NCBI GenBank assembly: GCA_030295235.1
Contig: AP026176.1
Span: 434,001 to 498,000 of the forward strand
Length of the DNA: 64,000 bases
Direction: 5' to 3'
Origin: Fistulifera solaris
Lineage: Eukaryota > Bacillariophyta > Bacillariophyceae > Naviculales > Stauroneidaceae
The position numbers were made by a program, and so were the translations under genes. The notes beneath the pieces are model-generated. The model saw nothing but the letters and a program-made list of their open reading frames with translations, was not told the origin of the DNA and did not search any database. This document shows, in pieces, positions 1 to 45,200 of this stretch (position 1 is the stretch's first letter; every line of letters starts with the position of its first letter).

Positions 1-979
1 TAAAATAATGATCCAGCTTGCGGGCTGTCTCTTTCGAAAACCTGAACTCGTCAACGCTGATCCCTCGATAGCGCGCCAATCCAAACTCATACAATGCATC
101 ATCTAAGATGGACATGAACGGATCCCAATCACGGCTGCCCAGTGCCGGATAGGTTATATTCTTTGCCTTGGCACTGATATGTAGATTGGGAACCGTGCGC
201 CATCCCAAAGATTGCGTGAATTGCGGTAACATGGCATCCCAATACTCCAACAATAAGATATGATCGAAAGAATTCAGCCGCTTCATTGTGTATTGAAATA
301 ACTCAAGGTTGACTTGATACTTGGGCACATTTTGACACCGCGTGCCGCAAATTTTCCGGAAATTCCAGTTGTCGGGTTGTGCCTGCCACCACGCATCAAA
401 TGTTGGTAATGTCACATTCGTGTGATACTGTTCTTGACACATGTGCTTCCAATGCGAACGATACCTGTCCTGACTTTGACGCAACACCACCATATACGTG
501 TAATGTTGATGATCCATCGCATCGTACATGTCCTTTTCATTGGCGACAAATTGATAAAAGGTCACGGCGGCAAATCGTTCTTGCGCTTGCAATGTATCGG
601 AAAACCCACAACACCGCTGATCCGGTTGAACATTGCAGTTTTGCTCTTTATTGACGCGCAATTGATTCATGGCAGCCAAAGCACACATACTAGTGCCGCC
701 ACTTTTGTGAATGTGCAAGAAATACACAATTTTGTGGTTCTTCCGTGTTCTTCGTAAATTTCCCAAATGCGGTTGCGAGTTGTCGATTGTCGTTGAATTG
801 CTAAGCGATTCGTTCCGCAGCATCAGAAGACTATCACGAAGAACTGTATCATTGAGCTCAAAAAGAGTATCGAAAGAGGGACCGTTACGGAAAGCAAAAA
901 GGAAAAAGAGGAAAGGGAGGAGAAGCTTGCATCGTCGAAGGCAGTTCCTACGAGCTTTTTCTTGTTCTTTTCTCGTCAT
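1..979 (-). CDS. Sulfotransferase, type II membrane protein (3' end beyond window)
   Basis: The reading frame is open for 326 codons from the ATG at 979 to the window edge, so the C-terminus is missing. Residues 1-17 are basic and cytosolic in character, and residues 18-30 (LLLPFLFFLFAF region) form one membrane segment. A lumenal stem follows with three N-glycosylation sequons (about 43, 56, 61). Residues 89-97 read HIHKSGGTS, the 5'-phosphosulfate loop of PAPS-dependent sulfotransferases. LRQSQDRYRSHW at 166-177 fits the 3'-phosphate-binding block. This is the layout of Golgi carbohydrate or protein sulfotransferases that move sulfate from PAPS to glycans or tyrosine; the acceptor cannot be told. 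It lies about 1 kb from two silaffin-like genes, which is suggestive because some silaffins are sulfated, but that link is inference. Confidence 0.85.
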   Translation of the reverse strand, partial: MTRKEQEKARRNCLRRCKLLLPFLFFLFAFRNGPSFDTLFELNDTVLRDSLLMLRNESLSNSTTIDNSQPHLGNLRRTRKNHKIVYFLHIHKSGGTSMCALAAMNQLRVNKEQNCNVQPDQRCCGFSDTLQAQERFAAVTFYQFVANEKDMYDAMDHQHYTYMVVLRQSQDRYRSHWKHMCQEQYHTNVTLPTFDAWWQAQPDNWNFRKICGTRCQNVPKYQVNLELFQYTMKRLNSFDHILLLEYWDAMLPQFTQSLGWRTVPNLHISAKAKNITYPALGSRDWDPFMSILDDALYEFGLARYRGISVDEFRFSKETARKLDHYF

Positions 980-2001: not shown

Positions 2002-2589
2002 TTAGTCTCGTTTGCCCTTACCCTTGCCTTTGCCGCTGGACGAGCTCGAGTAACTCTTCTTGCCTTTTCCCTTACCGGACTCAGAGCTGCCTTTGCCGCT
2101 CTTCTTGCCCTTGCCGGAGCTGCCTTTGCCTTTGCCTTTGCCGGACTCGGAGCTTCCCTTGCCGCTCTTCTTACCCTTGCCTTTGCCCTTGCCGGACTCA
2201 GAGCTACCTTTGCCGCTCTTCTTGCCCTTTCCGGAGCTTCCCTTACCCTTGCCCTTGCCAGACTCAGAGCTGCCTTTGCCACTCTTCTTGCCCTTGCCGG
2301 AGCTTCCCTTGCCTTTGCCCTTCCCGGAGCTCACGGGAGGTTCCTCCTCATCATCGTCGTCATCGTGATGCCCGTGATCTCCGTCGTGTCCATGATCGCG
2401 ATCATGACGATCATGACGGTTGTGACGATTGTGGCGCATGCGATGTCCCCAACGATGGGAGAGAAGGCGTTCGGTCTCGCCTTTCACTTCAATCGAAGCA
2501 GGCTGACTGGAGGAAGCGCGAAACGATGCGCCGATCAAGGCAACGAGCAATAGCGCGAGGAAGGCGGTTTTAGCAGCGGTGTACTTCAT
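2002..2589 (-). CDS. Silaffin-like secreted Lys/Ser/Gly-rich repeat protein, copy 1
   Basis: This 195-residue precursor starts MKYTAAKTAFLALLLVALIG, a clear signal peptide. After a short linker comes ETERLLSHRW, which holds an RXL site like the one used to process silaffin precursors. Residues about 48-80 are a His/Arg/Asp block (RHNRH, DRHDRDHGHDGDHGH) ending in a run of Asp/Glu. The rest, about 86-195, is a low-complexity array of SSESGKGKGKG and SSGKGKKSGKG units in periods of 22, 17 and 22 residues, ending GKGKGKRD. Clustered Lys and Ser in a secreted protein is the hallmark of silaffins, whose modified Lys and phospho-Ser drive silica precipitation. The homology is compositional, not proven. 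The gene is intact in a single frame. A 96-residue paralog lies 1.2 kb away on the same strand. Confidence 0.8.
   Translation of the reverse strand: MKYTAAKTAFLALLLVALIGASFRASSSQPASIEVKGETERLLSHRWGHRMRHNRHNRHDRHDRDHGHDGDHGHHDDDDDEEEPPVSSGKGKGKGSSGKGKKSGKGSSESGKGKGKGSSGKGKKSGKGSSESGKGKGKGKKSGKGSSESGKGKGKGSSGKGKKSGKGSSESGKGKGKKSYSSSSSGKGKGKGKRD
2005..2335. repeat. Coding minisatellite of the SGKGK array
   Basis: GC-rich degenerate tandem repeats (units of roughly 51 and 66 bases) encode the C-terminal Ser/Gly/Lys array of the silaffin-like gene. Such tracts change length easily by slippage, so copy number may differ between alleles or be misassembled. Confidence 0.75.
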
Positions 2590-3773
2590 CTTTCAACAGT
2601 TGAGACAGGGTAGAAGAGCGAGTTTTCGTACTTCGTTCGATTAATGTGAATGAATCGATCGGTGCGTGGAAGAATGAAAATCTTGCATGAAGGAGGGATG
2701 CGAATGGAACATGGCGTGCGCACTATGACGCTTGTAGTGACAGCCTCATTATTTTTCATTGTGACAAACTTTTTATCGGCCATCGAGCACGGATACTGTT
2801 TCTGCACGACTTGGGGCCTTAAATAAAAAAACAAGGAGCATTTGATATTGCCAACCTACTATGAAGCACCTTTGATATAAGAATGTACGCTAAAATGTCT
2901 ATAAGGCCTTTGCACTTTGCACGCGTCCAAGTGTCGGAGGTAGATATCATTAACAGGCACGTGGAGCGCAAGAGCCTGTGACTTTTTCAGTACATACCGG
3001 GTTAGTGTAAAAGCTACTTCGGTAATTGTTTAGGAGTTTTGGGAATTCGGGAGTCTTGCCAATTGCCAATTGCCTTGGATCTCGCCCATTTTTTCATGGA
3101 AGAAAAGTCGCCGAATTTTCGGCACGTTGCCACTGGTAGACGCCTACAGGAGATCGATTTGCCTCTAACTTCCTGAATCATCAACAACCAATTGCCATAA
3201 GTCGATGAGTGACTTGATCTCGTTGCCGGCCGCAAAGTGTGCTTCAGTCGTTTTTTGGCCGATAGCCGGCCGCTCCGACTTCCATCGAAGATGGTATGCA
3301 CTCGCAAAGAGTCTCGTTCAGCATAAACTCTTTTTCGACTGTTGTTTAACTTATTTTTAGAAGAAACTTGGCAACTTGCAGAAACCTTGAATTTATGTGA
3401 TGATTAGTGATTAATCAACAAAAGAAGACGGGACTGAATGAAATCTTAGTCTAACTTGATTGAACTCGGTTCGTTTCAGAAACTAAAGAAGATGCAAGTA
3501 CATTATACTAGCCACATCTCTAGCCTAACGTCGTCCCGTTGATTTGGAAACTGACCACTGATAACTCTACCAGGTACATAATGATTATTCGGCACCTTCT
3601 TAGTTGAAACGATATCTTACGTGTTCGAAAGCTAAAAAAGGCTGATAATGCTTCTAGAATAATGTTGCTTGTTAACGTACGGAACAAACGATTCCACTGC
3701 GTGCCGCGAAAAGGACCCCTCTTCATTGCTTAATCATTGGTCTCGCACATTTTATTCGTAAGCGGCAGCGAAA
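2590..3773. other. Intergenic between the silaffin-like genes
   Basis: No gene supported. Short open frames lack any recognisable feature. The stretch should contain the promoter of copy 1 (both genes are on the minus strand). Confidence 0.5.
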
Positions 3774-4064
3774 TTAGTTTCGTTTTCCGCTCTTACCACC
3801 TTTGCCACTCTTCTTTCCTTTGCCGGAGCTGGACGACGAGCTGTCATCGGCATCATCATGTCCATCATGCCCGTCATGTCCATCGTGTCCGTGGTCGCGA
3901 TCGTGGCGGTCGTGACGATTGTGGCGATTATGACGGTTGTGACGGTTGTGACGACGGATCTGCAAAGTGCGATCCTCGTTCAAGTTGTCGACGCCGCGGA
4001 TGTTTGCGCTGGCAATCGCAAAGAAGAAGAGAGCCAAAATGGATGCTGTGAAGGAGTATTTCAT
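3774..4064 (-). CDS. Silaffin-like secreted protein, copy 2 (short form)
   Basis: A 96-residue precursor. I chose the start MKYSFTASILALFFFAIASA, a signal peptide aligning with MKYTAAK of copy 1; an in-frame upstream ATG would add 57 residues before the signal peptide. Next comes NEDRTLQIRR, with an RXL site (RTL) at the same place as RLL in copy 1. Then a stronger RHN/RHD block (four RHN units), HGHDGHDGHDGHDD, a six-Ser run and a short GKGKKSGKGGKSGKRN tail. It has the same order of parts as copy 1 but only one short Lys array, so it is either the ancestral short form or a contracted copy. It may be a co-expressed silica or metal-binding peptide; function is inferred from composition alone. 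Confidence 0.78.
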   Translation of the reverse strand: MKYSFTASILALFFFAIASANIRGVDNLNEDRTLQIRRHNRHNRHNRHNRHDRHDRDHGHDGHDGHDGHDDADDSSSSSSGKGKKSGKGGKSGKRN

Positions 4065-4888: not shown

Positions 4889-7215
4889 CTAGTCATGTTG
4901 TGTGACCCGAATCCCTCTCGAACGAATCGGCAATTTAGCAGCCACTTCCTCCATAGCTTTTTCCGCCAACAATGATTCCATTACAACACGAGATTCGGTC
5001 ATGAGTTGAAAGGAAGGATTTTTGGGCATGCCATGTAGAATTCGTTTGGCAGAATCAGCAGCAAAGCTCGGGAGTGCATTCAGATCGGAGGGTATTTTAC
5101 CCATAGCCTGAATGATTTTTCCGAGTGCGTCCACTTCTTGTTCCATACCACGCATGTTCCGAAACGCTTCCCGTACACCCGCTGCATAGCGTACGGTCCT
5201 CATCATGTAGCTACCAATCGATGTCATAGGGTAGATGCTACAAGTTCCGTGCAAGCATTCTTCAATGACGGCAGCCGAATCGTTGCAAACCGCGGTCAAT
5301 CCGTAACCACCGAAGGGCAAATCGCGTTCCGTGGCCAAGCCGTTCAAGCATGTAGCATACACAGCTGCGAATCGCACCGCTCGTACTGCTTCGGCTCCCT
5401 TCAAACGAGGACCGCAGTCGATACTACGGATCCAAGGTACGTTAGCATTGTGATTTGTGTACCACCCACAAAAGCCGTCAATCGCAATAAAATGCTGGAT
5501 ACTCAATTTCGCCGGCTTTCCGTCTCCACGATCGCCGAACAATGGTCCAGAAATATCCAAGTCTAATCCCGAGTGCGGCATGGCGACAGACGCTGCGTTC
5601 CCTTCATGATCTTCGTATCCACTATCCAGGAAACAAGCCAGCGGTATATTCGAGAACGAACCGTCCTTCTCTTTCACGCAAAGTGCGATTCCGAAAGTTG
5701 TTACGTGCGTGGTGACAGCTGTTTCCACATGATGACCCGTTTCGATTAACGCTCCAATGAAACCGCCAGGGGTGGTGATTTCTTTCCATTGAACACGACC
5801 ATAAAATCGCCTTCTCTGGCTTGTCCAGTATATCTTCGATAATAATTCGATGCTAGTTTGTTCATGAGGACCGCCACCAATCGATTGAGTAAAACTTCGC
5901 GGTTTGTGTGGGTGCACTCGGCATTGCCCCAGCCCAGATGCAAATCCGGCAATAACCGCGGATTGATTGGAACGGGCGGTGCCATCGCACGGCCGTCTGG
6001 TTTGTATCCACCGATCGCATTGATAGACGGTGCTACTCCACCAATGTCGTTTCTCCGATTGCTTTGCCTCTCGACGTTGTTTTGGCTTGCTTGTTCATCA
6101 GCGTTGGCTCGTTCCGTCAAAATTGCTTCCATCCGATCCAATGCAGCTGGTAAATCCGTGTCGATATGAAAACGTTTTGAGGGAATGAATTCGTCCGAAG
6201 CAAAAGACGGGTCGTTTCCCGTCTCTCCCATAATCATCTTTTCGATTGGTGTCGTCCGTTTTACCGTGGGTTGCTTTTGCTCTTGCGTCGACTCCGTTTC
6301 ACTATTATCAGTCAGTGACTCGGGACTTTTCCATAACTCTTGAACTTTGGCATTCACTTCCGACACGGCCAGAACACTCATCAAATTCAAAGGTAAACCG
6401 GCACGATCCGACATGGATGTTGTCCGCATTGCGAGTGCTCTCCCAGCCAGCGCCGAAGCTAGTGCTTTTGTGGGTCCCTGCGTGAATTTCCCCGTGAGAG
6501 GCAAAACCGCACGTCCCAAGTTGGGTCCCAAAGCTTTAAGCAAAGCCGCCGTCAAAGCAGCGCCCAATTCGGCTTGCAATACAGTCGGTACGTCTTTCAT
6601 CTGGATGCTTGCTGGAAGCATCGCCGGTTTCAACTGACGCATGTATTCTCCTAGACTCATCAATTGCCAACCTTCTTGTTCTTTTAATTTTCGACAAGTC
6701 ATTCGATCCATTTCCAGCAATTGCAAATTCCGAAACACCGATCCTTCCTGTTCGCTGGAGTCCGATATTCGTGTCATTTGTACATTCAAAAACAAGGAAT
6801 CTTCTTCCAGTTGTCGTAACTTCTCCATAATAGCACCGCGATAGAAGTATGCCACGATAAAAAGAATCAAAACTGTGGGGATTGCGAGAGTGGCTGCGAT
6901 GCGCGTTACCGACAAGGAAGAATCGCCTTGCTCGTTCACAAGTAGAGTGTGAAAGGTGGGTAAAGAAGCTGTAAATGGATTTGTAAACTGAGACACCGAT
7001 GATGTGCTCAACATTGTCAAGGACGTCCCTTTCGTCTTTTTTGATGCATTTGAATAAGGCAAGGACCGCGACGTCGTATAAGAAGAATAGCTTGGTCGAA
7101 TTGTTGCTCTCGTAACAGAGGAAAAAGTCCGGAGACCGTGCACTTTGTTTGCAAAATGCAAAGAATGTACCAAAACAGGGAAAACGAAGGAAATTCGTTT
7201 CGTGTGAACAAACAT
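4889..7215 (-). CDS. Conserved membrane-anchored protein of unknown function
   Basis: About 775 residues once one frame step is allowed for. The N-terminus has a hydrophobic, Ser/Arg-rich leader (MFVHTKRISFVFPVLVHSLH) that looks like an organelle-targeting sequence. About residues 107-123 (ATLAIPTVLILFIVAYF) form a membrane segment, followed by a charged helical stretch (EKLRQLEEDSLF). The middle is polar linker. The C-terminal 350 residues are a compact domain with CLNGLATERDLPFGGYGL and CSIYPMTSIGSYM, which I recognise only as a stramenopile-type conserved region. The frame breaks near 5779-5785 at two short A runs (coding strand); one extra A joins the halves smoothly (VFNGK into ITTPGGFIGAL). 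I read it as one gene with an assembly indel. I do not know its function. Confidence 0.7.
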
Positions 7216-9683: not shown

Positions 9684-10157
9684 TCATCGGGTCAAGCTGG
9701 TCAAATTGCCAGCGCTCTGCTTGCGTCGTGGTGGCGTCGCCGCCGAATCCATAGAATGACTCTTTTGCCAAGGCCTCCTGGTTGGTCGAACAAGGAATTT
9801 ACTATAAAGCCATGGATTGGGGCTCCACCGTAATTCTTGAACGTTATTATGGCTGATAACCGGGCCTTCTTCGTCGTCCGAGGAGTCGGAAAGATCCGAG
9901 TCGCAATCACGAGAGAGACGTTTGTCTTTGCAATTCACCCAAGAACCAACTGGATAAGCATTCACTATGGCGCTTGGACGCGATCTCCTGTATGATCGGA
10001 TACGCACACTGTCAAAGTCGTTCGTCGGCCAGTGAGGACTTTGTCGATTATCGTTTGGCAAAACGGCATGATTATCGGAAGATCGAAAGCGGCTCGGAGG
10101 AAAGGACGAGCTATCCAAGAACAAGTTCGTTCGTTGCTTTGACGGTGCTTCATTCAT
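9684..10157 (-). CDS. Family A small protein, member 1
   Basis: 157 residues, intact. Family A has no domain I recognise but five ordered blocks. (1) An N-terminal MNEAPSKQRTNLFLDSSSFPP-like start, here KQRTNLFLDSSSFPP. (2) A basic stretch before a P-L/V-G-x-W block (PVGSWVNC here). (3) An acidic Ser tract (DCDSDLSDSSDDEEG). (4) QELRWSPNPWL. (5) A C-terminal site, PPRRKQSAGNL, followed by a short TSLTR end. The acidic tract looks like a CK2 substrate, and R-K-Q-S-A-G-N-L matches the R-x-x-S-x-x-x-L consensus of AMPK/SnRK and CaMK kinases. No signal peptide or membrane segment is seen, so it is probably nucleo-cytosolic. I infer a short regulatory or adaptor protein; function unknown. Confidence 0.72.
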   Translation of the reverse strand: MNEAPSKQRTNLFLDSSSFPPSRFRSSDNHAVLPNDNRQSPHWPTNDFDSVRIRSYRRSRPSAIVNAYPVGSWVNCKDKRLSRDCDSDLSDSSDDEEGPVISHNNVQELRWSPNPWLYSKFLVRPTRRPWQKSHSMDSAATPPRRKQSAGNLTSLTR

Positions 10158-11595: not shown

Positions 11596-12054
11596 TCATC
11601 GGGTCATTAATTTCAAATTGCCAGCGCTGCGTCTTCGTCGCGGTGGCGTTATTGCCGCGTCGAGTGCTTCACACTTTCGGTGTGGTGTGTTTGGTGCCGA
11701 TGAATGACGGGTGAGACTTGGCTGAGAGCACCATCGTAACTCTCGAATCATTTCCAGCGGCTCTTCTTCGTCTTCCGAATCGGAAAGATCGGAATGGCAT
11801 TCGTGCGATGAATACCTTTTAGAAAGATCCACCCATCGACCCAACGGACTTTTGGCTGTGGTTGTTGCCACCCTTCGCTTGTACGAATGCGATGACCCGA
11901 TCAGCATGTTGGCACAGTCAACGGCCGTCGTCGATCGAACAGACCGCCGGAGATATTCGGGGTGTGACGGTTTGGAGTGTCGATAATGGATTGGAGGAAA
12001 AGACGAGCTGTCCAAGAACAAGTTCGTTCTGTCTTTGGTTGCTACTTCGTTCAT
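11596..12054 (-). CDS. Family A small protein, member 2
   Basis: 152 residues, intact. It has the block order of member 1: MNEVATKDRTNLFLDSSSFPP-like start, SPLGRWVDL, HSDLSDSEDEEEPLEM, IRELRWCSQPSL and ITPPRRRRSAGNLKLMTR. It is the closest relative of member 1 by eye (same SSSFPP and RSAGNL). The C-terminal Ser keeps Arg at -3 and Leu at +4. The Copia element begins about 550 bases from its start codon, so its upstream control region may have been separated from older neighbours. Confidence 0.72.
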   Translation of the reverse strand: MNEVATKDRTNLFLDSSSFPPIHYRHSKPSHPEYLRRSVRSTTAVDCANMLIGSSHSYKRRVATTTAKSPLGRWVDLSKRYSSHECHSDLSDSEDEEEPLEMIRELRWCSQPSLTRHSSAPNTPHRKCEALDAAITPPRRRRSAGNLKLMTR

Positions 12055-12702: not shown

Positions 12703-15700
12703 GTCCCCTCACGATGAGACCCGAGCTAGGGCTTCAACGTGTCCTTCATAACCGATAAACCCTTATTCCATGGAAAAACAACATAAAAACCATGACGATT
12801 CATTCATCGAATCCATCCTTCATCATGTGGAAAATACATCAAAACCACACATCGACTTGTCCGTGGAAAATACGTCAAAACCACGTATCAAACTTGAAAC
12901 TTCAATCACTGTACCTGGACGAAAAACTTATCCCCAGGAGGCTCATCCCATCGGAATAGTAAACATAACTACCCAACCAGTGCATCGGGACCTATCGCCT
13001 GCATCACTGATGTAAAATACGCTTCACCAGTGGATCTCGTACATTCCCAGCTTGAATCTTCGTCAGAATATCTGCCAAATTCGTCTTCGTGGGCTCGTAG
13101 GATACATCAACGATACCCATCGCAACTCGCTCACGTGCATAGTGATATGCCACCGAATTGGACTTCTTCTTCAGAACTGATTCGGGAATACTCGAGTTCT
13201 TGATCACCGACATATTGTCACCTTTGACAACCGCAGGATCTTCTACCGGCACACCCATCATCTGTAGTTTGTACCGTAGACCTTCGATTAACTCGACCGC
13301 CGTTTTCATAGCACTAAACTCAGCACCAAATGTGGACGTCTCAATCGAAGTTTGCTTCTTGCTGTACCATACTGTCAATGACCTGTTCAAATAGATCAAG
13401 ACACCTGTACGGGAACGACGAGTAACATGGTCACCCGCCAAGTCAGCATCAACGAAACACGTTATTTGCACAGGCTTACCCAATGGCTTTGGACAATCCG
13501 TCGGAATCATAGGCTTAGCATCTCGGTAAAAGTCATTCCAATCAGGTCTAGGTTGTCTGGCGTGCTCGACATACGAAGGATCGAACACAATCTTAGACCT
13601 TTCATGTGACTTCAAATATGCAAAGACATGCACAACCGCAGCTAGATGGCCTTTCCTTGGCATTGCACTGTGAGACGCAAGCATCGAAACTTCACCACAA
13701 ATATCAACTCTTCCAAGCTCGACCATCCAGCGTAAAACCCCTATTTGCGAGTGATAAAACTGGATTTCGTCGCCGGCACTCCGGCGATATGTCAAGCTCC
13801 GGACGGTACTTCGGTGGTAAAACACTTGACACCTTCTTCGGGTAAAGCCTCATCTCGCTTTTCCAACCAAAGACAAATGTTTCGTATTGCTTCCTTCACA
13901 TATTCATTCGAACTCATCGACCAACAAGGCTTTTCGTCACCCGGGAATTGATGCTGACCAATCGTTGAACCCAAGTAGCGAGTTGGCTTGCCTATCGAAC
14001 CTTCTTTCAGAAGAAAGTGTTGATCAAGCTTGTATAGAATAGCTTCCGGCGCCACAGAAACACACAGGATGTCATCCGTATAGACCAATACCAACTCGTA
14101 GTAACTAGTCCCATCCGCTTTCTGTGCCGGCCGTATCCATACATCGTTATCCATTTCGACAAGGTGTAAAACTCAACGACTCATGCAAACACTCACTCAG
14201 ATATGACCTCCACGCAGCTCCAGAACTCTTCAGTCCGTAAAGAGCTTTCACGATTTTCTTCGACCTTTGAACTGTGGACCAAATTCGGCACCGCAAATAA
14301 TAAAGATTCGTTCTCGAACTGGTGCATTCAAGTACGCATTTCCAATATCTGCCGCCATAATGTCCAAATCGTTCAATGCCGCAAGTAGGAAGGCAATCCG
14401 CGACGCTTTCTCTCGATACAACACTAGCATAGGTAATCGAGCTCGGCGGATCCGTCATGTGTCCCCCCTGCTACGAAGCGGGCCTTCCGTGTGAAATCTG
14501 GTTTTATATCAAAAACCATGTGAACCCCAATCTTGGTAAAACCAGCAGGATCGGGAGCGTCTTCATCAAGGATCTGAAACGCCCTTAGCTACCGCGACGC
14601 ATCTCTTCTGTCGCCTTCGCCCAAAAGTCAGTTCCCGTAGCGATCAATCGCCAATGCTTCTTCGACTGTCTTTGGCAATGCGATCCCATATTTCTGAGTA
14701 ACACGAAAGTAGCGCTTAGCCATCGCTTTGATGATCCTGGTCCTTCTCTTGAGCGTGTAGGGAACCCACCATGAGAAAGCAGGCTCCTCAGCAATCTGTC
14801 TCGCAACAGCAAATTCCGCTAACTGTAAAGGGTGAGACTGCTTTAGGTCTTTCAGTTTCTCCCAAGTAGTAGTGCCATCATTCCATAGACAACACAGTTT
14901 CCATCCCTTGGTAGTCCGCTTAGGATACTTTCGGTTGTTGTGGATCACGAATGCCTCTTCATGCGGAACCGCTCGCACGACTCTTTCTTGTAGTCCACTA
15001 TTTCCTTTAGGACATAACTCGCACGCCCATGGTCATCAACTTCGGCATAGATGGCTTCAGCGATCTGATTCGCATGATAAGCCTCCACTTCACCCGTATC
15101 AAATTCAATCTCATACAGAGCGGTATCGAGCAAAGGGTTAGGATGGTACCGGCCAATAGGATTCCCGTCTTGATCGTGCTTCCGACCTTTAACCGTACCG
15201 TACGACATCGAGTCCCCTTGCGGAAGCATTACCCTTGCTGAGATATATTGATTGTATGAATCGTAATCAAACTCATCAGCTTCCTTAATCTCGGGAACTT
15301 CGGGATCTTGCGACTCGATCGGAACATAGTATTCCAACTCTGGGGTGCGCTCGTCTTCCGGTATCTCGGTTGGATCCAAGGGCATGGCTCGGTCCTTCAG
15401 CTTTTGCTCCAACGTCTGCGTGAACTTTGCCTTCAACTCAGCAACGGCTTGGCTATTCTGTTCCTCAACTGACAAAGGGAAAACACTTGTGCGGGAAATC
15501 GGTCGACCAAGCGGGTAGGATCCTAGCACATAGGACATCACCGACATCGAAACTGGGACCAACGTATCTTCCAAGATGCTTCCTTTCCATATTTTCGTCT
15601 TGAGAGATAAACCAAACCCAATCATACCAACCGAACTCACAAATGTGTGAAATATCAGCGGTGTCCCCTGTCAAAAGCGTCTGCGGCACTTCACCATCTA

Positions 15701-33360: not shown

Positions 33361-36300
33361 TCAATTCAATGGTGTCAAGAAGGGAAGAGGGACCAGGACT
33401 GTATCCATCAACTGGACCCGATTCTGGTTAATCATATCGCAAAAAGTATTCGACCGTTCAAGTGGCAATTGAAAGTCCATGTGAGCTTCTCGAACACGTT
33501 CGTCGCATAAATAGGGAGTAGAGTCTGCTTGAAATTCACTGATAGGAGTCTCCTTGTCCACGCTTTGATAGATTTTCACTTTGAATATGCTCTGTAAAAC
33601 AGCGTAACAGAATTGTTGTCTGCGTTCTCGCCAAGTGATGTATGTCTTCTGGATCAAAAGAGCTGCTCTGTGCCGCTGGACGAGACGCTCGTCCACCGAC
33701 AATTCCACTCGTATTCTTTGACAAGAGAGCTGTTCCACAATTCGAACACTCCAGCCCGTGGACCGGGAGACATGTCTTTTACGTTCTGTGTTGAAGCCAA
33801 TGCGGAGTGCTTTATATTCGCAGCGCGCTTGGTAACCTCGATAAAGTCGTTGAATCATGACGCAGCACGATGATTCCATTGACCGAAACGCCCGAGTCAA
33901 TCGTGATGACTGTGTAGCGGAAAAAGCATGTTGCTCAGAGCTGAGCAATGGTAGTTTTGATTTCGTGCTTTGTCTTACTAGCCCTAAGACGACAGGTGCC
34001 GGGATGTTAAGCATACGCTCTTCGACACGTAGTCGTAACAGTATAACCACAGATTCCAGTATAAAAATCATTGCGTCGAATTTCCAATTCTTGTACTGTT
34101 TAGACGCCGTGCTAGAAAGCATATCGCATGGTAAGTTTTGGCGTCGCTCCTCAAAGTGTCGAAGTGCTTGTTGTAGAGCAGGCATTACAGTGGTGTCGCC
34201 AAGGAAACTATTACGATCAAAGCAACTGCGAAACAGGGTCTGTATCTGTAATACATCTCTCAAAAGACGATTTTCTTCAGTCTTTCGGCGACTCCAAATG
34301 TTTCGTCTGCACAAGATACCTCGAATAACTCTTTGCAAGGTAATAATAGATCTTTTACGATGCTGAACATACAGACGAAACTTTTTCTGGAATGGTACAA
34401 TGGCGTTTCGACACAGCTGGTAATAAGCACGACATTGATATCGACGGAACGAGCTCTGTATCGTGCTAGCCGCAACTGTGTATTCCAAGAAACAAACGAC
34501 ACGAGTGTGTTGCAACCGCACAGGCGATGTTTCGGCGATAGTTAGTGGGTATCGCGTCTTTCTGTAATATGCTCGCCATTTACTCTGTATCACAGATGCC
34601 GCAGTTTTCCGTATTTCGATTTCAGCCAGGCAATTCCTGTACTTGTTTCGTTCAATCCATCCACGAATGTGCGATTGCAGCTTAATCGAAGACAACTTGG
34701 CTTTATTGACAACCTGTCGGACAAGCAAGGCTCTTGCATGTGATTGAATGTGAAGAATAGCAGTGCGCCTCATGGAGGCTTCTCGAACGGCTAGGCACTT
34801 GCGTGCGACGGCTTGCATTTTGTTGCTCTTTCCTGCTGTGCGTCATGTCGAAGCTTCTGGAGCTTGCGACGTGTTACCGCCCCACGAGCCCAAGACTGTA
34901 AGACGATAATTGAAGCGCAAAATAATTTGTATCTCTGCCTCACAAGCCATCTTCGTGCGCATGCTTGAATAAGCATCACAGTCTGGCTGAGCTCGTATCT
35001 TATGCAAACAAAGTTGGAGCGAATCATCCATGCGCGCACATGAGATTGTAGTACGATTGAAGATTCCCGCATGGTAATGTATCGTAATCTGGTTGACACA
35101 CATCGCACCAAATTTTGAATACGAACTGCGGCTTTATTGATCTTGAGTTGATAACGAGCGTTTCTGTACCGGCTCTGTATAATAAACTTACGGGCGAACG
35201 ACTGGATAACAAGAAGAGACGACCGAACCAAGTTATAGCGACGCACGGCGAGCCAGATGCGAACTCTCGTTTGTATGTTTGTAGCAGCATTTTTGGAAAT
35301 AGCGAGTTGGTAGCGGGGTTTATATCCTCGATAAGTTGCCTGAATCATCAACGCAGCCACGCGCGACAAAATAAAAGAGTTCTGTACAAAAATTCGACGG
35401 CAAGATTTCTGGAGCACGATAGCCGATGCATGTCGAAGTTGTCGTTGCGGGGAAAGCATCCACATGCGGAATAGGGACTGGATCAATATTGCAGCACGAT
35501 GACGACGCCACCATGTTTGAACTGTGATCGCCGCCCACCACAAAAGAGAAAAATCGCGAGCTGACTGCCAGCCTCGATAAGTAGCCTGTATGGTTGTTGC
35601 AGCAGATTTCATTCGCTTGAAGGCATTTCGACATAGGTACCCTCTTATAATGGCTTGCAGCCAGACACTTAATATTTGTAAATTGTGAAGATGGTGCTGG
35701 ATCGGAATCATACGCCACCAGCATTGCAAGCGAAGTGCGTGGCTTTCAATCTCATTCAGGCTGAACTGATTTCGAACACAAAGAGTGCGCCAGTAAATTT
35801 GCCAGCGATATGTTTTCAGGGAAGGACATGATGATATCATGTCGAAACAAAATTCTTTGAAGTGCACCAGCCTGTAGCAAATCAAAGTTATGTCGTACTA
35901 GATAACCGCGTACGACCCGTTGAATTTGAGTACAAGCGGTGTTGGCTCGATGAAAGCCAGCGACGAGCACACTCTGAAATTGCAAAAAGCCTGGTGGTGC
36001 CGTAGCTAGCCAACGTTGAGTCATGTACATTCTCACACAGGACTGGATCAAAATAGCGCTGAAACGCCAAAGCTGAAATGTTTGCGTGGCTTGAAAGGAA
36101 CGCCACTTGGTCTGAATAATAACGGCTGCGGACAACCATATTCGATATTTCTTGATTTTTTTGTCGCTTCAGGTAACCCCTTACGACGCGCTGAATATCA
36201 ATCGACGCAGCTTTAGCACAATCAAAGCCAGCGGCAAGGACGCCTTGATAGTGTTGAAAAGCAGGCGTCGTGAGGATGATGCGAGGGATGGAACGGCGCA

Positions 36301-38286
36301 CAAGGTAGCCGCGGATTTGTGACTGAATGATAATGATACACGCTCGCAAGCATTCAAACATTTCAATAGCTTGATATCGACGCCATCTGGATTGAATAGC
36401 AGCAGCTGACATTTCTTGCTTCTCGAGTTTCAACAAAATTATAGCTTTGGCTGCAGCATGTCGACGCCACTGTGCCTGAACAAATGTAGCAGCCGAGTGC
36501 TGGTGTTCTATCGCCATCTGCTTCAAGACATCCAGCAACCTAATGCAAGCGTATCGCCGCCAGCATGTTTGTACTATTACCGCTGCTCTCTCCTGACATT
36601 GTCGTTTCAAAGACTGCACTATACTATAGACTCGACTGGCAGGTGCCTTCGCCATTGCGATTGAATAACAATGGCGGATCTTTCTCGGTTGTGGACGTTG
36701 AGGTGCTGGATCATTTCATATCGTTTTAACGCTAGATACGCACGGCATTTTGTTTGTATGATTACAGCAGCTCGTTCCTGACTCTGCTGATGCATCCGCA
36801 CAACCAGCTGATACATTCGAACTGCCAGATAACGTCGCCATTGGGTTTGAATCAATACAATCGCGGGCCGCTGGTTTTGCAAAACAACTTGCTTCCACAA
36901 CGTATACCGTTCGACCGCCATGACACGACGCCAACTGGCTTGAATACGAACAGCTGCGGCGTGTTCTATCCTCCATTTTTCTTGATGGTTCTGTAAGGTC
37001 CGTTGCCACGATTTCCGTACCAAATACCCCCGAATTTGCGCTTGCACTATAATAGAACAAGCACGTAAACACTCCAACATTCCCATGGCTTGATAACGAC
37101 GCCATTGGGTTTGAATCAATATTGATGCCGTCCGCCGTGACCGCAGGACAGCACGTTTCTGCACCAACAAATCGCGTTGGACCATGACACGTTTGTATTG
37201 CAAGAGCAATCGACGTTGTTGCAACATATGATAATAATCGGCGATCTTACACCGTATCAAAAACATGCGAACGACCGACTGAATGACAATGACACTAACC
37301 CGGAGCCACCCAAACGATTGTCGGACTTTTGTATCCTCGGTAGCGCGTTTGGATCGTACGGGCCGCGCGATGCCATTTTGATTGTCGAACAAAGCGTTGA
37401 ATGGTAAGAACGGCCCACAGCAATGTACGATAATCGCGCTCTAGGACGGTCATTCTCCACCACGATTGAATTGTTAGGATAGCGATTTGCTGTTGTTGCA
37501 TCGAAGTGGTCGATTTCGAGAAATACGAAGGAGAATCGGGGGTCCTTGGGTCAGAAGAGTAATGAGGACTTGTCTTGATACGTATCAACTTGTCATGAAA
37601 GTAATCTTTCCTTATTACAGGTCGACGCGGAAATGCCCTCCACCATGCTTGAATGCGAATTGCGGCGGAATACTGCTGATAACGTGTATTCGGAGATCGT
37701 CGGGGAGTCGCTTGCGAGACTCTTGTGGCTATTTTACGTTGAGAAGAAGAAGGAGTAGGAATCGCTGCTTGTCTCACAGGAGTCAACGCCGACTTAGCAT
37801 GCTCGATGCGATGCGAGACAGACGCTTCCAGTGCAATTATGGTCTTCCAATCCTCCGAGGAAGGTCGTGACGAATGTTTGCCCCCGCTGTTGCCGTCGGC
37901 TGTGCGTCTTCTTCCTGTCGTTCCTCATTCCACGGCATCCGCTCGAGTTCCATTTTGTAGACAGCATGTTGATAGAGACGATCGTAGACAACGGGATCTT
38001 TCTGCAAACGATTCCATCGCGTACTACTCAAACGACGTGTCACACTTTCGCCCGGCGTACCGAGAATTTGGATGCAATTTTCTTCAAAGGCGTCGTTCGT
38101 CGCTAAACTGCTATTGACACTGATAATTTCATCTTCATTTTCTTCTGTATTCTTTTGTTGAGTGGTTTCTTCTTCTTCGTCGGGTTGCGGAAAAGACGTC
38201 CTTTGATAAGAAGTATGCGACGCGGTCGGTAAGGTTCGCTTGCTTTGTTTGTCTTCTGTTTGCGCAGAACGGACAGAAACATCCAT
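33361..38286 (-). CDS. Giant IQ-repeat (calmodulin-binding) protein
   Basis: About 1,640 codons. The N-terminal 150 residues are acidic and polar (DEEEETTQQKNTEENEDE). The rest holds about 40 IQ motifs such as AAVIIQTKWRSFQATQ and AAIRIQAWWRAF, mostly 20-50 residues apart. IQ motifs bind calmodulin or myosin light chains and stiffen into rods. The pattern recalls the IQ region of ASPM or myosins, but no motor, calponin-homology or kinase domain is visible. Six frame changes occur (near 37850, 37350, 36640, 36080, 35800 and 34805); at the last, one extra A in a short run joins both sides. I treat it as one gene with indels, though introns at some joints cannot be excluded. A cytoskeletal or spindle role is plausible but inferred. 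Confidence 0.75.
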
Positions 38287-41053: not shown

Positions 41054-42326
41054 CTATGCTGCGCTTTGCATTAACTTCATTGGGAGCTCCGCGTTTGTGT
41101 TCTTCACTTGGACGGTCTCATAGCTAGTCTCGACATTTCCCCAAACGGCATTTTGCATGTTACCGCCAGCTTGAGCCAAATCGACAGAGTACGAAGATGA
41201 ACGGTGAATATGAGTTCCGGGTCGGTCCAATTTACTGGTAAGTAGATTCGAGCACGACTTGGTTCCGCCTCCTCCTAACTTGCTGCGATATGCCTCGGCC
41301 AGGAGCACGGGGTCACTCGGAATCCTCTTGATTCTCTGTCGAGCTTGCTCGAACATCACCGCATCAATCGCTTCCTTTCGCTTTTCCTTCAACTCTCGTC
41401 GGTTAATGAAAGTCTCCAGACCATGCAAGGTACTCGACTCGGACTCCTCGAATGCTCCTGTCTTTTGTTCACGCAACGCTCGTTTAATGTTGTTCTTCAT
41501 CCCAGTGTACTCCTTGTCGCTATACCAAACCGAGTTTTTCAATTCCGATTCGCACATTTCAATAGCTTTAACCGACTGAACTGGATTCTCCTCAAATGAA
41601 ACGCACTTTTTCATACCCGAACTGCTCTTTTTCCTCTGAAGGCCCTTCGTAGTAAAATTACAGTGTGATCGACTCGAGGTAAGTGCTGCTTGCTTAGTGA
41701 CCATTCGCATAAGTGATTGAGAGTTCCTTTGTGGCTGATCAGCATCCTTCAACTTGTTTTCCGCAATCTTGCGCTGTAACAGGCTTTTCATCGAATCGGT
41801 ATTGCTCAAAGATGGAGTGCGCTGTTGAGAGTCATGAAGCGCGAGGCCTTTCATTTCTGGAAGAGGACCGACGACATCCGTCTTTTCATTTTGTGAATCT
41901 TGTGAAGGTAGTTTTTGAATGGAATGTAAAATTGTATTCGGTGCATTCGACTGTCGTGAATTTCCTTCTGTTTCGGCTCGTTTCGGAACCGCCAGTTGTG
42001 CCTGCAGATTCTTCATCAAAGTACTTCTCGTTTCGTCGCTCATGGCTCCCCATAAAGCCGTGAGTCGATCAGGATTATTATTCACTGGACCTGCTTCGGC
42101 ACTCTTCATGATGCTTGCTCTCGGCACAAAAGTGGCATTCGTAGAAGCCGCGGTAGAAACAGAAGGGCCATCGGTGAGCGACGAACTTGTCTTTGACAGA
42201 TCCTCTCGGCTGCCCCATTTCTGCTTCCAGAAACTCTGGTAAATTGGAATTGGAAGCCCTGCGGACAGTGGCTGCTGTCTTCGGGGAAGATACACTTTCG
42301 ACGGTAAGCTTCGTCATGGTCATCAT
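41054..42326 (-). CDS. Family B protein, member 1 (long form)
   Basis: About 424 residues, the longest of seven family B genes. The family core has three blocks. (1) [RK]xVxF in basic-then-acidic context, here KKCVSFEENPVQSV. (2) [ILV]W[YF][ST]xxE, here SVWYSDKEYTGMKNN. (3) E[ST][ED]xxT[FLY]xGL[ED], here EESESSTLHGLE. A C-terminal DPxLLAEAYRxKL block follows. Block 1 matches the RVxF docking motif for protein phosphatase PP1, whose known context is basic before and acidic after. Member 1 alone has a 220-residue Ser/Gln-rich N-terminal extension, including VRRASNSNL, the same RxxSxxxL site seen in family A. The start is MMTMTKLTVESV at 42326; the frame steps near 42240. No membrane segment. 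PP1 binding is inference. Confidence 0.7.
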
Positions 42327-44551: not shown

Positions 44552-45200
44552 TCACGCCAGTCGTTCCATTTGCTCTTGGTAGACTTTGGCAATTCGTTCT
44601 TGATTCACGGTTCTCCGTCTGCTACTGAGTTTTTGCTGTTCTCGCAAGACTGCTCCGTAAATAGTTTCTCGTTTCGTTTGAATTTTGTCGCCGTCTAACA
44701 TACTGTCGAGTCCCAAAAGGTGTGATCGTCGGACTCTTCAAAGTCGCCACTCTCTTTCAAGTACACAATTAACTGGTTGCGTTTCTTGATGAGCTTCATT
44801 TCTGCCTTGCTGTACCAGATGTCGGTCTTTTGTTCATGTAAAGCAACTTTTCGTACGTCCGAAACAGGGTCTTCTTCGAAGGAAACCGATCGAATGAGTT
44901 TTCGTGTCGAAGCTTTGCGGACGGGTTTGCGCGGGCTCAATTTGCCCCAAAGCGACTTGTTCGTCGTCGACGACGAAGCTGTGATGGTAGATGATTCCGA
45001 ATCATCGGAAAAACGCTTGCCATGGATGGACGGTGAGAGATGGAGCGCACAGGGTTGTTGTTGATCGGCATGTTGGTGTTTGTTGGTTGTGATGAGGCTG
45101 GATCGATGAGATTTATGCGACGATCTTTCGAAGGAGGTTTTGAGCGGGGCACATGTAAGAATGAACTTAAGCCGTCACTTTGAAAAGGTCCGTCGAACAA
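44552..45200 (-). CDS. Family B protein, member 3
   Basis: About 216 residues with a polar N-terminal region ending in SLWGKLSPRKP. Blocks: LIRSVSFEEDPVSDV, DIWYSKAEMKLIKKR, and FEESDDHTF that reads on as LGLDSML after an indel at an A4 run (44715-44718). A second step at an A5 run (45009-45013) joins MASVFS to DDSESSTITASSS. The C-terminus ends IAKVYQEQMERLA, the family's Y-Q-x-x-M block. The exact start is uncertain; I used the first ATG of the open frame. Confidence 0.66.

Follow-up and report, generated by a model that had tools for sequence, protein, structure and literature searches.

The 64,000-nucleotide stretch of the Fistulifera solaris genome analysed here (assembly GCA_030295235.1, contig AP026176.1, positions 434,001 to 498,000; hereafter the window) contains, within its positions 2002-4064, two complete open reading frames (ORFs) on the minus strand, a short gene upstream (4064..3774) and a long gene downstream (2589..2002). 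We tentatively read their products, at a little short of an even chance, as secreted proteins of a silicifying alga that are intrinsically disordered and either form silica or associate with it, silaffin-like in character and carrying two differently charged modules. An earlier note on this DNA had described a tandem pair of silaffin-like precursors, and the pair is indeed there: both ORFs are intact and each specifies a signal-like N-terminus, a block dominated by Arg, His and Asp (the R/H/D block) and a Ser/Gly/Lys array. That they are secreted silaffin-like proteins is partly supported and appears to be the best reading of the pair, but each of the two forms passes only some of the screens by which silaffins have been recognized.

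The two proteins share one order of blocks: they open with MKY and a hydrophobic stretch, continue through a spacer bearing a single RXL tripeptide and the R/H/D block of 38 residues, and close with the C-terminal Ser/Gly/Lys array. The N-terminal stretch is the only hydrophobic one in either protein: the Kyte-Doolittle average over nine residues peaks at 3.48 in the long form (residues 11-19) and at 3.18 in the short form (residues 9-17), and no nine-residue segment starting at residue 25 or later rises above zero. The cleavage sites of both proteins were judged by eye against the -3/-1 rule, without a signal-peptide program. Along the R/H/D block RHN repeats give way to RHD repeats and these in turn to HGHDG with acidic residues, so that a basic start turns acidic toward the array, which is itself basic. 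The features of the two genes, with the basis on which each was assigned, are as follows:

3774..4064, minus: short gene, 96 residues, single-exon ORF with stop (ORF reading)
4005..4064, minus: short protein, signal-peptide-like N-terminus, residues 1-20, where a cut between AIASA and NIRG fits the -3/-1 rule (inspection and hydropathy)
3963..3971, minus: short protein, RTL, residues 32-34, possible RXL processing site (sequence; not above chance)
3843..3956, minus: short protein, R/H/N/D block, residues 37-74, with 11 His, 10 Asp and 8 Arg of 38 (composition count)
3879..3935, minus: short protein, 19 residues identical in both proteins, RHNRHNRHDRHDRDHGHDG, residues 44-62 (pairwise comparison)
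3777..3842, minus: short protein, Ser run and lysine cluster SSSSSSGKGKKSGKGGKSGKRN, residues 75-96 (composition and motif scan)
2002..2589, minus: long gene, 195 residues, single-exon ORF with stop (ORF reading)
2524..2589, minus: long protein, signal-peptide-like N-terminus, residues 1-22, a cut between GAS and F being one possible cleavage site among several (inspection and hydropathy)
2461..2469, minus: long protein, RLL, residues 41-43, possible RXL processing site (sequence; not above chance)
2341..2454, minus: long protein, R/H/N/D/E block, residues 46-83, with 10 His, 10 Asp, 3 Glu and 7 Arg of 38 (composition count)
2380..2436, minus: long protein, the same 19 residues, RHNRHNRHDRHDRDHGHDG, residues 52-70 (pairwise comparison)
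2005..2331, minus: long protein, Ser/Gly/Lys array, residues 87-195, with 35 Lys, 30 Ser and 37 Gly of 109 (composition count)

The array of the long form contains four copies of GKGKKSGKGSSESGKGKG, starting at residues 98, 120, 137 and 159, with which the tandem periods of 117, 66 and 51 bases in the DNA agree, while the array of the short form spans 22 residues with 6 Lys and 8 Ser. The shared ending GKGKR(D/N) that had been claimed for the two arrays is seen in the long form, which closes with GKGKRD, but the short form ends GKSGKRN and not GKGKRN. An S-x-E motif recurs in the long array at residues 107, 129, 146 and 168; S-x-E is a preferred site of animal secretory-pathway kinases. What would chiefly set the short form apart from the long one is how much lysine array accompanies each His/Asp block.

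From their pattern of substitution we conclude that both genes are real and conserved and that purifying selection acts on both blocks, because every difference among the array copies and within the core shared by the two proteins is silent. The RHN/RHD-HGHDG block reported earlier as repeated in both proteins is present, and across the 19 identical residues 11 of the 57 bases differ between the paralogs, all 11 in third positions and synonymous. Likewise, 12 of the 54 columns vary among the four array copies, again all at third positions and without amino-acid change. When the changes were placed at random, in simulations that take no account of codon bias, an all-synonymous outcome arose in none of 100,000 trials for the 11 core differences and in none of 200,000 for the 12 array changes. 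The GC content at third codon positions is 0.66 in the long and 0.59 in the short gene, whereas six other ORFs have 0.45-0.53; strong expression might account for the higher values, or simply base composition.

These substitutions also bear on the notion that the pair are not genes at all, being chance frames over GC-rich tandem repeats or the complement of a coding sequence on the opposite strand. Two plus-strand frames are likewise open across the long array (1990-2550, 187 codons; 1878-2570, 231 codons), and a third varies at merely 2 of 17 residues among the array copies. However, the minus frame keeps all 18 residues unchanged despite the 12 variable columns, whereas the two long plus frames change 12 of 18 and 11 of 17, and the third plus frame is short (2054-2365, 104 codons) and lacks a Met. 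The start codons, the signal-like N-termini and the existence of a paralog with exclusively synonymous differences in the core agree with the minus frame. We therefore reject the antisense frames as coding on the copy-to-copy residue changes and regard the chance that these are not genes as negligible.

The R/H/D block stands apart from the rest of the window in composition. In a comparison set of 432 stop-to-stop ORFs of at least 60 residues in the 64,000 nucleotides, the best 30-residue stretch of each protein holds 19 His plus Asp, and that of the next best independent ORF holds 9; two frames antisense to the same DNA reach 15 and 13. With fixed model pKa values and unmodified residues, lowering the pH from 7.2 to 5.0 raises the computed charge of the block by about 9-10 units, from -4.9 to +4.4 in the long form and from -0.8 to +9.0 in the short form. 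Varying the His pKa over 6.0-6.8 places the long block at -5.4 to -3.1 at pH 7.2 and at +4.0 to +4.7 at pH 5, so that its change of sign persists, and the short block at -1.3 to +1.1 and +8.5 to +9.3, respectively. The arrays, taken without modifications, carry +31 (long) and +6 (short) at pH 7.2. AlphaFold, run for the long form on an alignment of the two sequences, which makes it a weak test, returned a mean predicted local distance difference test score (pLDDT) of 48.9 with helices only at residues 4-26 and 39-49, a result compatible with a disordered protein.

The array, for its part, was set against published descriptions of silaffins and frustule proteins (the papers cited here and below by PMC accession are represented by individual passages of their text). 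The criteria of Scheffel et al., which PMC3478156 quotes, ask for at least 18% Ser and at least 10% Lys over 100 residues plus a signal peptide, and the long form has the composition, with 30 Ser and 31 Lys in the 100 residues from 86 to 185; one further ORF of the 432 (44698-45174) also passes this compositional part. Pentalysine clusters, defined as five non-consecutive lysines within 12-14 residues (PMC9650480, PMC5501833), occur in the long form as 16 stretches of this type, 4 of them without adjacent KK. A further screen looks for repeated KXXK, with X being Ser or Gly, at distances of 1-6 residues (PMC5501833); the short form has three overlapping KXXK in one cluster, the first and third lying 2 residues apart, and passes if overlaps are allowed. 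At least two K[SG][SG]K motifs are found in these two ORFs alone among the 432. Moreover, strings of 7-8 residues are common to the arrays and to the lysine-enriched regions of frustule proteins: KSGKGSS of the long form is found in CinW2 and CinY2, while the short form shares KSGKGGKS with Tp5357, which is a frustule-localised protein (PMC9650480).

A number of observations weigh against the silaffin-like, silica-associated reading. The short form, with 96 residues, 11 Ser and 7 Lys, lies below the 100-residue composition screen, and it contains a pentalysine cluster only if adjacent KK are counted. The cluster itself, with KK allowed, occurs in 9 of the 432 ORFs, the long form and eight others, and is hence not specific. 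In the long form the four KSGK motifs are separated by 18, 13 and 18 residues and so miss the spacing of 1-6, and successive lysines in its array are mostly 2 residues apart (17 of 34 intervals, as in KGK) and seldom 3 (4 of 34), whereas frustule proteins favour a distance of 3 (31 of 47 intervals in eight of their published lysine-enriched regions), which also accounts for 3 of 5 intervals in the short array; in this the long form leans away from the KXXK rule and toward KG repeats. The RXL tripeptide lends no help either, since 25% of shuffled spacers of the long form and 31% of those of the short form contain one by chance (n=20,000). The charge values share the limits of the fixed-pKa model from which they come. 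Finally, a profile built from the two proteins picked out 298 pattern stretches in viral contigs and 594 in prokaryote genomes, none of which was confirmed, in collections that rarely hold genes of eukaryotes. Two neighbouring proteins of the window likewise had no relative among the viral contigs.

The RXL tripeptides call for some comment, as the earlier note had placed them at the same position in both proteins and had invoked RXL processing as a mark of silaffins. RTL and RLL are present, and their contexts can be aligned as [ED]RxLxxR, but neither their occurrence nor the likeness of the spacers exceeds chance: the alignment score was reached by 1332 of 2000 shuffles, and when the stretch was extended a little, by 1742 of 2000. 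We accordingly rejected RXL as evidence of a shared design, and the argument from processing has no support above chance, although RTL and RLL may still serve as processing sites. There is no RXL within either array.

Similarity searches placed the pair in no described family. In Pfam, searched at E up to 1, the long protein drew only sub-threshold matches (PBP1_TM, E 0.021, with 15.5 bits where the cut-off is 27.8), as did the short protein (Ctr, E 0.13, 13.2 bits against 25.3; ZIP, E 0.2, 11.3 against 35.1; and SelP_N, the N-terminal family of selenoprotein P, E 0.31). Among PDB sequences the long protein had no match at E up to 0.01. When open PMC main texts were searched with strings of both proteins, matches occurred only in papers that, by title and the start of the abstract, are unrelated to diatoms; among the matches listed from such texts no diatom protein joining a His/Asp block to a Ser/Lys array was recognised. 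The passages on diatom wall proteins mention no His/Asp block, the nearest feature in them being a Tyr- and His-rich stretch of Amphora AC4076 (PMC4220933).

Comparison with known systems indicates which parts of the design are familiar. Like the silaffins (Sil1p of C. fusiformis and those of T. pseudonana) and the silaffin-like proteins (SFLPs), the two proteins have a signal-like N-terminus, a Ser/Lys-rich C-terminal part and an RXL, and the long form shares with them a repetitive array with pentalysine-type stretches. Unlike in silaffins and SFLPs, however, the lysines of the long form are mostly arranged as KGK and not as KXXK, an R/H/D block sits between the RXL and the array, and the array lacks an internal RXL. 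In Sil1p the N-terminal domain is acidic, and its function is described as not established (PMC4557024). The cingulins (CinW, CinY), Tp12162 and Tp5357 resemble the pair through the KSGKGSS or KSGKGGKS strings of their lysine-enriched regions, but the His/Asp block is extra here and the Trp/Tyr-rich alternation of cingulins is missing. With 1 Trp and 2 Tyr in the 195 residues of the long form and no Trp and 1 Tyr in the 96 of the short, KXXK regions do not alternate with Trp/Tyr-rich ones and membership in the cingulins is rejected. Cys is absent from both proteins, and this excludes the acidic cysteine-rich domains of frustulins. Nor are these silacidins, which are acidic Ser/Asp/Glu peptides released at RXL, as both arrays are basic and no RXL separates the repeats. 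A ZIP or Ctr transporter is likewise rejected, given the Pfam scores below cut-off and the single N-terminal hydrophobic stretch.

The earlier note had held that a His/Asp block of this kind lies outside the classic silaffin design, and among the diatom wall proteins described in the passages at hand it is indeed unusual; it has a functional analogue, however, in a sponge. The nearest one found is the HD (His/Asp-rich) domain of glassin from hexactinellid sponges, which is reported to be crucial for silicification, above all in combination with the HT domain; a charge relay has been suggested for (His-Asp)5 (PMC10772126, PMC11733937). The likeness is one of composition and design and not of homology: the glassin domain, too, is His/Asp-rich, N-terminal and without predicted structure (PMC10772126, PMC11733937), whereas the proteins considered here have extra Arg and a Ser/Lys array and lack the proline-rich, His/Thr-rich and C-terminal regions of glassin. 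As the Pro-rich and His/Thr-rich domains are wanting (there are 3 Pro in the long protein and none in the short), membership in the glassins proper is rejected. In a different glass sponge, roughly 120 residues of a His-rich candidate can be approximated as HEH(N/Q) (PMC10282587). In sorghum, Siliplant1 is a zwitterionic secreted protein, of which peptides with Lys, Glu, His and Asp precipitate silica (PMC11733937); our pair resembles it in being zwitterionic and, by prediction from sequence, secreted, but differs in its scarcity of proline, which the Siliplant1 peptides also list. KG dipeptide repeats such as those of the long form are found along with signal peptides in AC714 and AC3362 of Amphora coffeaeformis, the latter being cell-wall bound (PMC4220933). 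These proteins, unlike ours, are Tyr-rich and longer, and in the passages describing them a His/Asp block does not appear, though their sister AC4076 has the Tyr- and His-rich stretch mentioned above.

The computed rise in block charge between pH 7.2 and 5.0 leads us to propose a silica-forming polyampholyte that would become cationic in an acidic compartment such as the silica deposition vesicle (PMC4557024). In its specific form, which we consider doubtful, the proposal is that of a diatom-type silica protein fusing a glassin-like His/Asp pH switch with a silaffin-like Lys/Ser array, two chemistries that each occur in a different kingdom, and present as paralogs with differing array doses. 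The signal peptide would direct the protein into the secretory pathway and thence to the silica deposition vesicle. The array, with modified lysines and phosphorylated serines as in known silaffins, would bind silica and polyanions and provide targeting, while the R/H/D block would contribute a chemistry like that of glassin. Because it is rich in His and Asp, this block would carry little net charge or a negative one while in the endoplasmic reticulum and Golgi, so that it could keep the protein soluble in transit, and would turn cationic in the acidic vesicle, driving coacervation with phosphorylated partners; silica would then condense on arrival through the joint action of the cationic block and the modified Lys/phospho-Ser array. 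The proposal bears on how silica formation is confined to the acidic vesicle. The core of 19 residues, fixed between the paralogs while the DNA drifted, offers a compact and synthesizable handle on pH gating, and if the proposal were true pH-gated silica coacervation could be tested directly with short peptides. It would further suggest that sponges and algae, and perhaps grasses too, have convergently put His/Asp-rich sequences to use for silica.

Other functions must be weighed against this reading. The pair might be secreted metal-binding proteins, held to the wall by the Lys/Ser array, whose RHN/RHD/HGHDG block would serve to chelate Zn, Ni, Cu or Fe, either on the surface of the cell or within a compartment of the secretory pathway. 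The 10-11 His per 38 residues with Asp neighbours would suit such a role, as would the faint echoes of Ctr (E 0.13), ZIP (E 0.2) and the selenoprotein P N-terminus (E 0.31) in the short form, all three being families with His-rich stretches; yet these scores lie far under the curated cut-offs and are probably due to composition, neither protein has a Cys, and chelation alone would leave the conserved Ser/Lys array unexplained, for which reasons we think metal binding unlikely. Somewhat less probable in our estimate is a place in surface adhesives or the mucilage matrix, where a KG-rich polycation would bind sulfated or carboxylated polysaccharides outside the wall and have nothing to do with biosilica. 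In its favor one may cite the gene for a sulfotransferase-like protein that adjoins the pair (2-979, minus) and the KG repeats of AC714 and AC3362, which come from a search for adhesion proteins (PMC4220933), but Tyr is nearly absent from our pair (2 in the long form, 1 in the short).

Composition alone cannot separate silica proteins from other low-complexity polycations, and exported proteins rich in histidine or lysine, such as those of Plasmodium, exist with no connection to silica. A different extracellular role, in defence peptides or in the binding of nucleic acid or phosphate, thus deserves mention; given the strings shared with frustule lysine-enriched regions and the agreement of the long form with the Ser/Lys and pentalysine definitions, we regard it as improbable. 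Targeting to the plastid, at least of the long form, might be suggested by its possible signal cleavage site between GAS and F, where a Ser/Arg-containing stretch begins that is non-acidic until E34, in the manner of diatom bipartite presequences, and F23 after GAS agrees with the high-confidence class of ASAFind, which checks whether +1 is F, Y, W or L (PMC12136025). In the short form, however, +1 is occupied by N and an acidic residue follows by position 26, the conserved block common to both argues for the same destination, and cleavage after S22 is only one among several possibilities in the long form, all of which makes a plastid location very unlikely.

As regards the origin of the pair, the flanks of the two genes are no more similar than expected by chance (best E 0.097 over about 1 kb upstream and 0.31 over about 0.5 kb downstream), and hence the duplication is either old or was confined to the coding part. 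The suggestion that the two forms reflect expansion of the array agrees with the four unit copies of the long form as against the short cluster of the other, but the array copies differ at 4-9 of 54 bases without amino-acid change, and a very recent expansion is therefore rejected as unlikely. The difference between the arrays may reflect gain in the one form or loss in the other.

Adjoining the pair, and cut by the edge of the window, is an ORF at 2-979 (minus) for a type-II-membrane-like protein with the motif HIHKSGGTS, which we take to be a sulfotransferase-like phosphate-binding loop. It has no Pfam match, its best PDB match is weak (heparan sulfate 6-O-sulfotransferase, E 0.11) and its model is poor (mean pLDDT 35.7). 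The protein could be a modifying enzyme for the pair, or its position could be a coincidence. On the other side, two adjacent minus-strand ORFs without a Pfam match (4889-5581 and 5746-7215) might be parts of one spliced gene.

Elsewhere in the window there is a second tandem pair of paralogs on the minus strand (9684-10157 and 11596-12054, with MNEAPSKQRTNLFLDSSSFPP... and MNEVATKDRTNLFLDSSSFPP..., respectively), for which Pfam, searched up to E 1, gave nothing. Two minus-strand ORFs (41054-42109 and 44698-45174) both contain, as noted by eye, a stretch SFEE(N/D)PV ... WYS; Pfam gives nothing above threshold for them, and the stretch is perhaps an undescribed domain. Between about 13000 and 17800, on the minus strand, lie what are presumably the remains of a Copia-type retroelement, among them an ORF at 13004-13726 that is RNase H-like; in the ORFs tried, Pfam matches all stayed below threshold, the best being DUF7178 (E 0.038). 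A long run of IQ calmodulin-binding motifs, recognized by Pfam, extends across several minus-strand ORFs at 33361-37924, and is perhaps part of an ASPM-like spindle protein. Together with Pfam matches elsewhere in the window to APC4, an ABC1 kinase, a glutamine amidotransferase with SIS domain and an HSF domain, these IQ repeats support its placement in a eukaryote nuclear genome.

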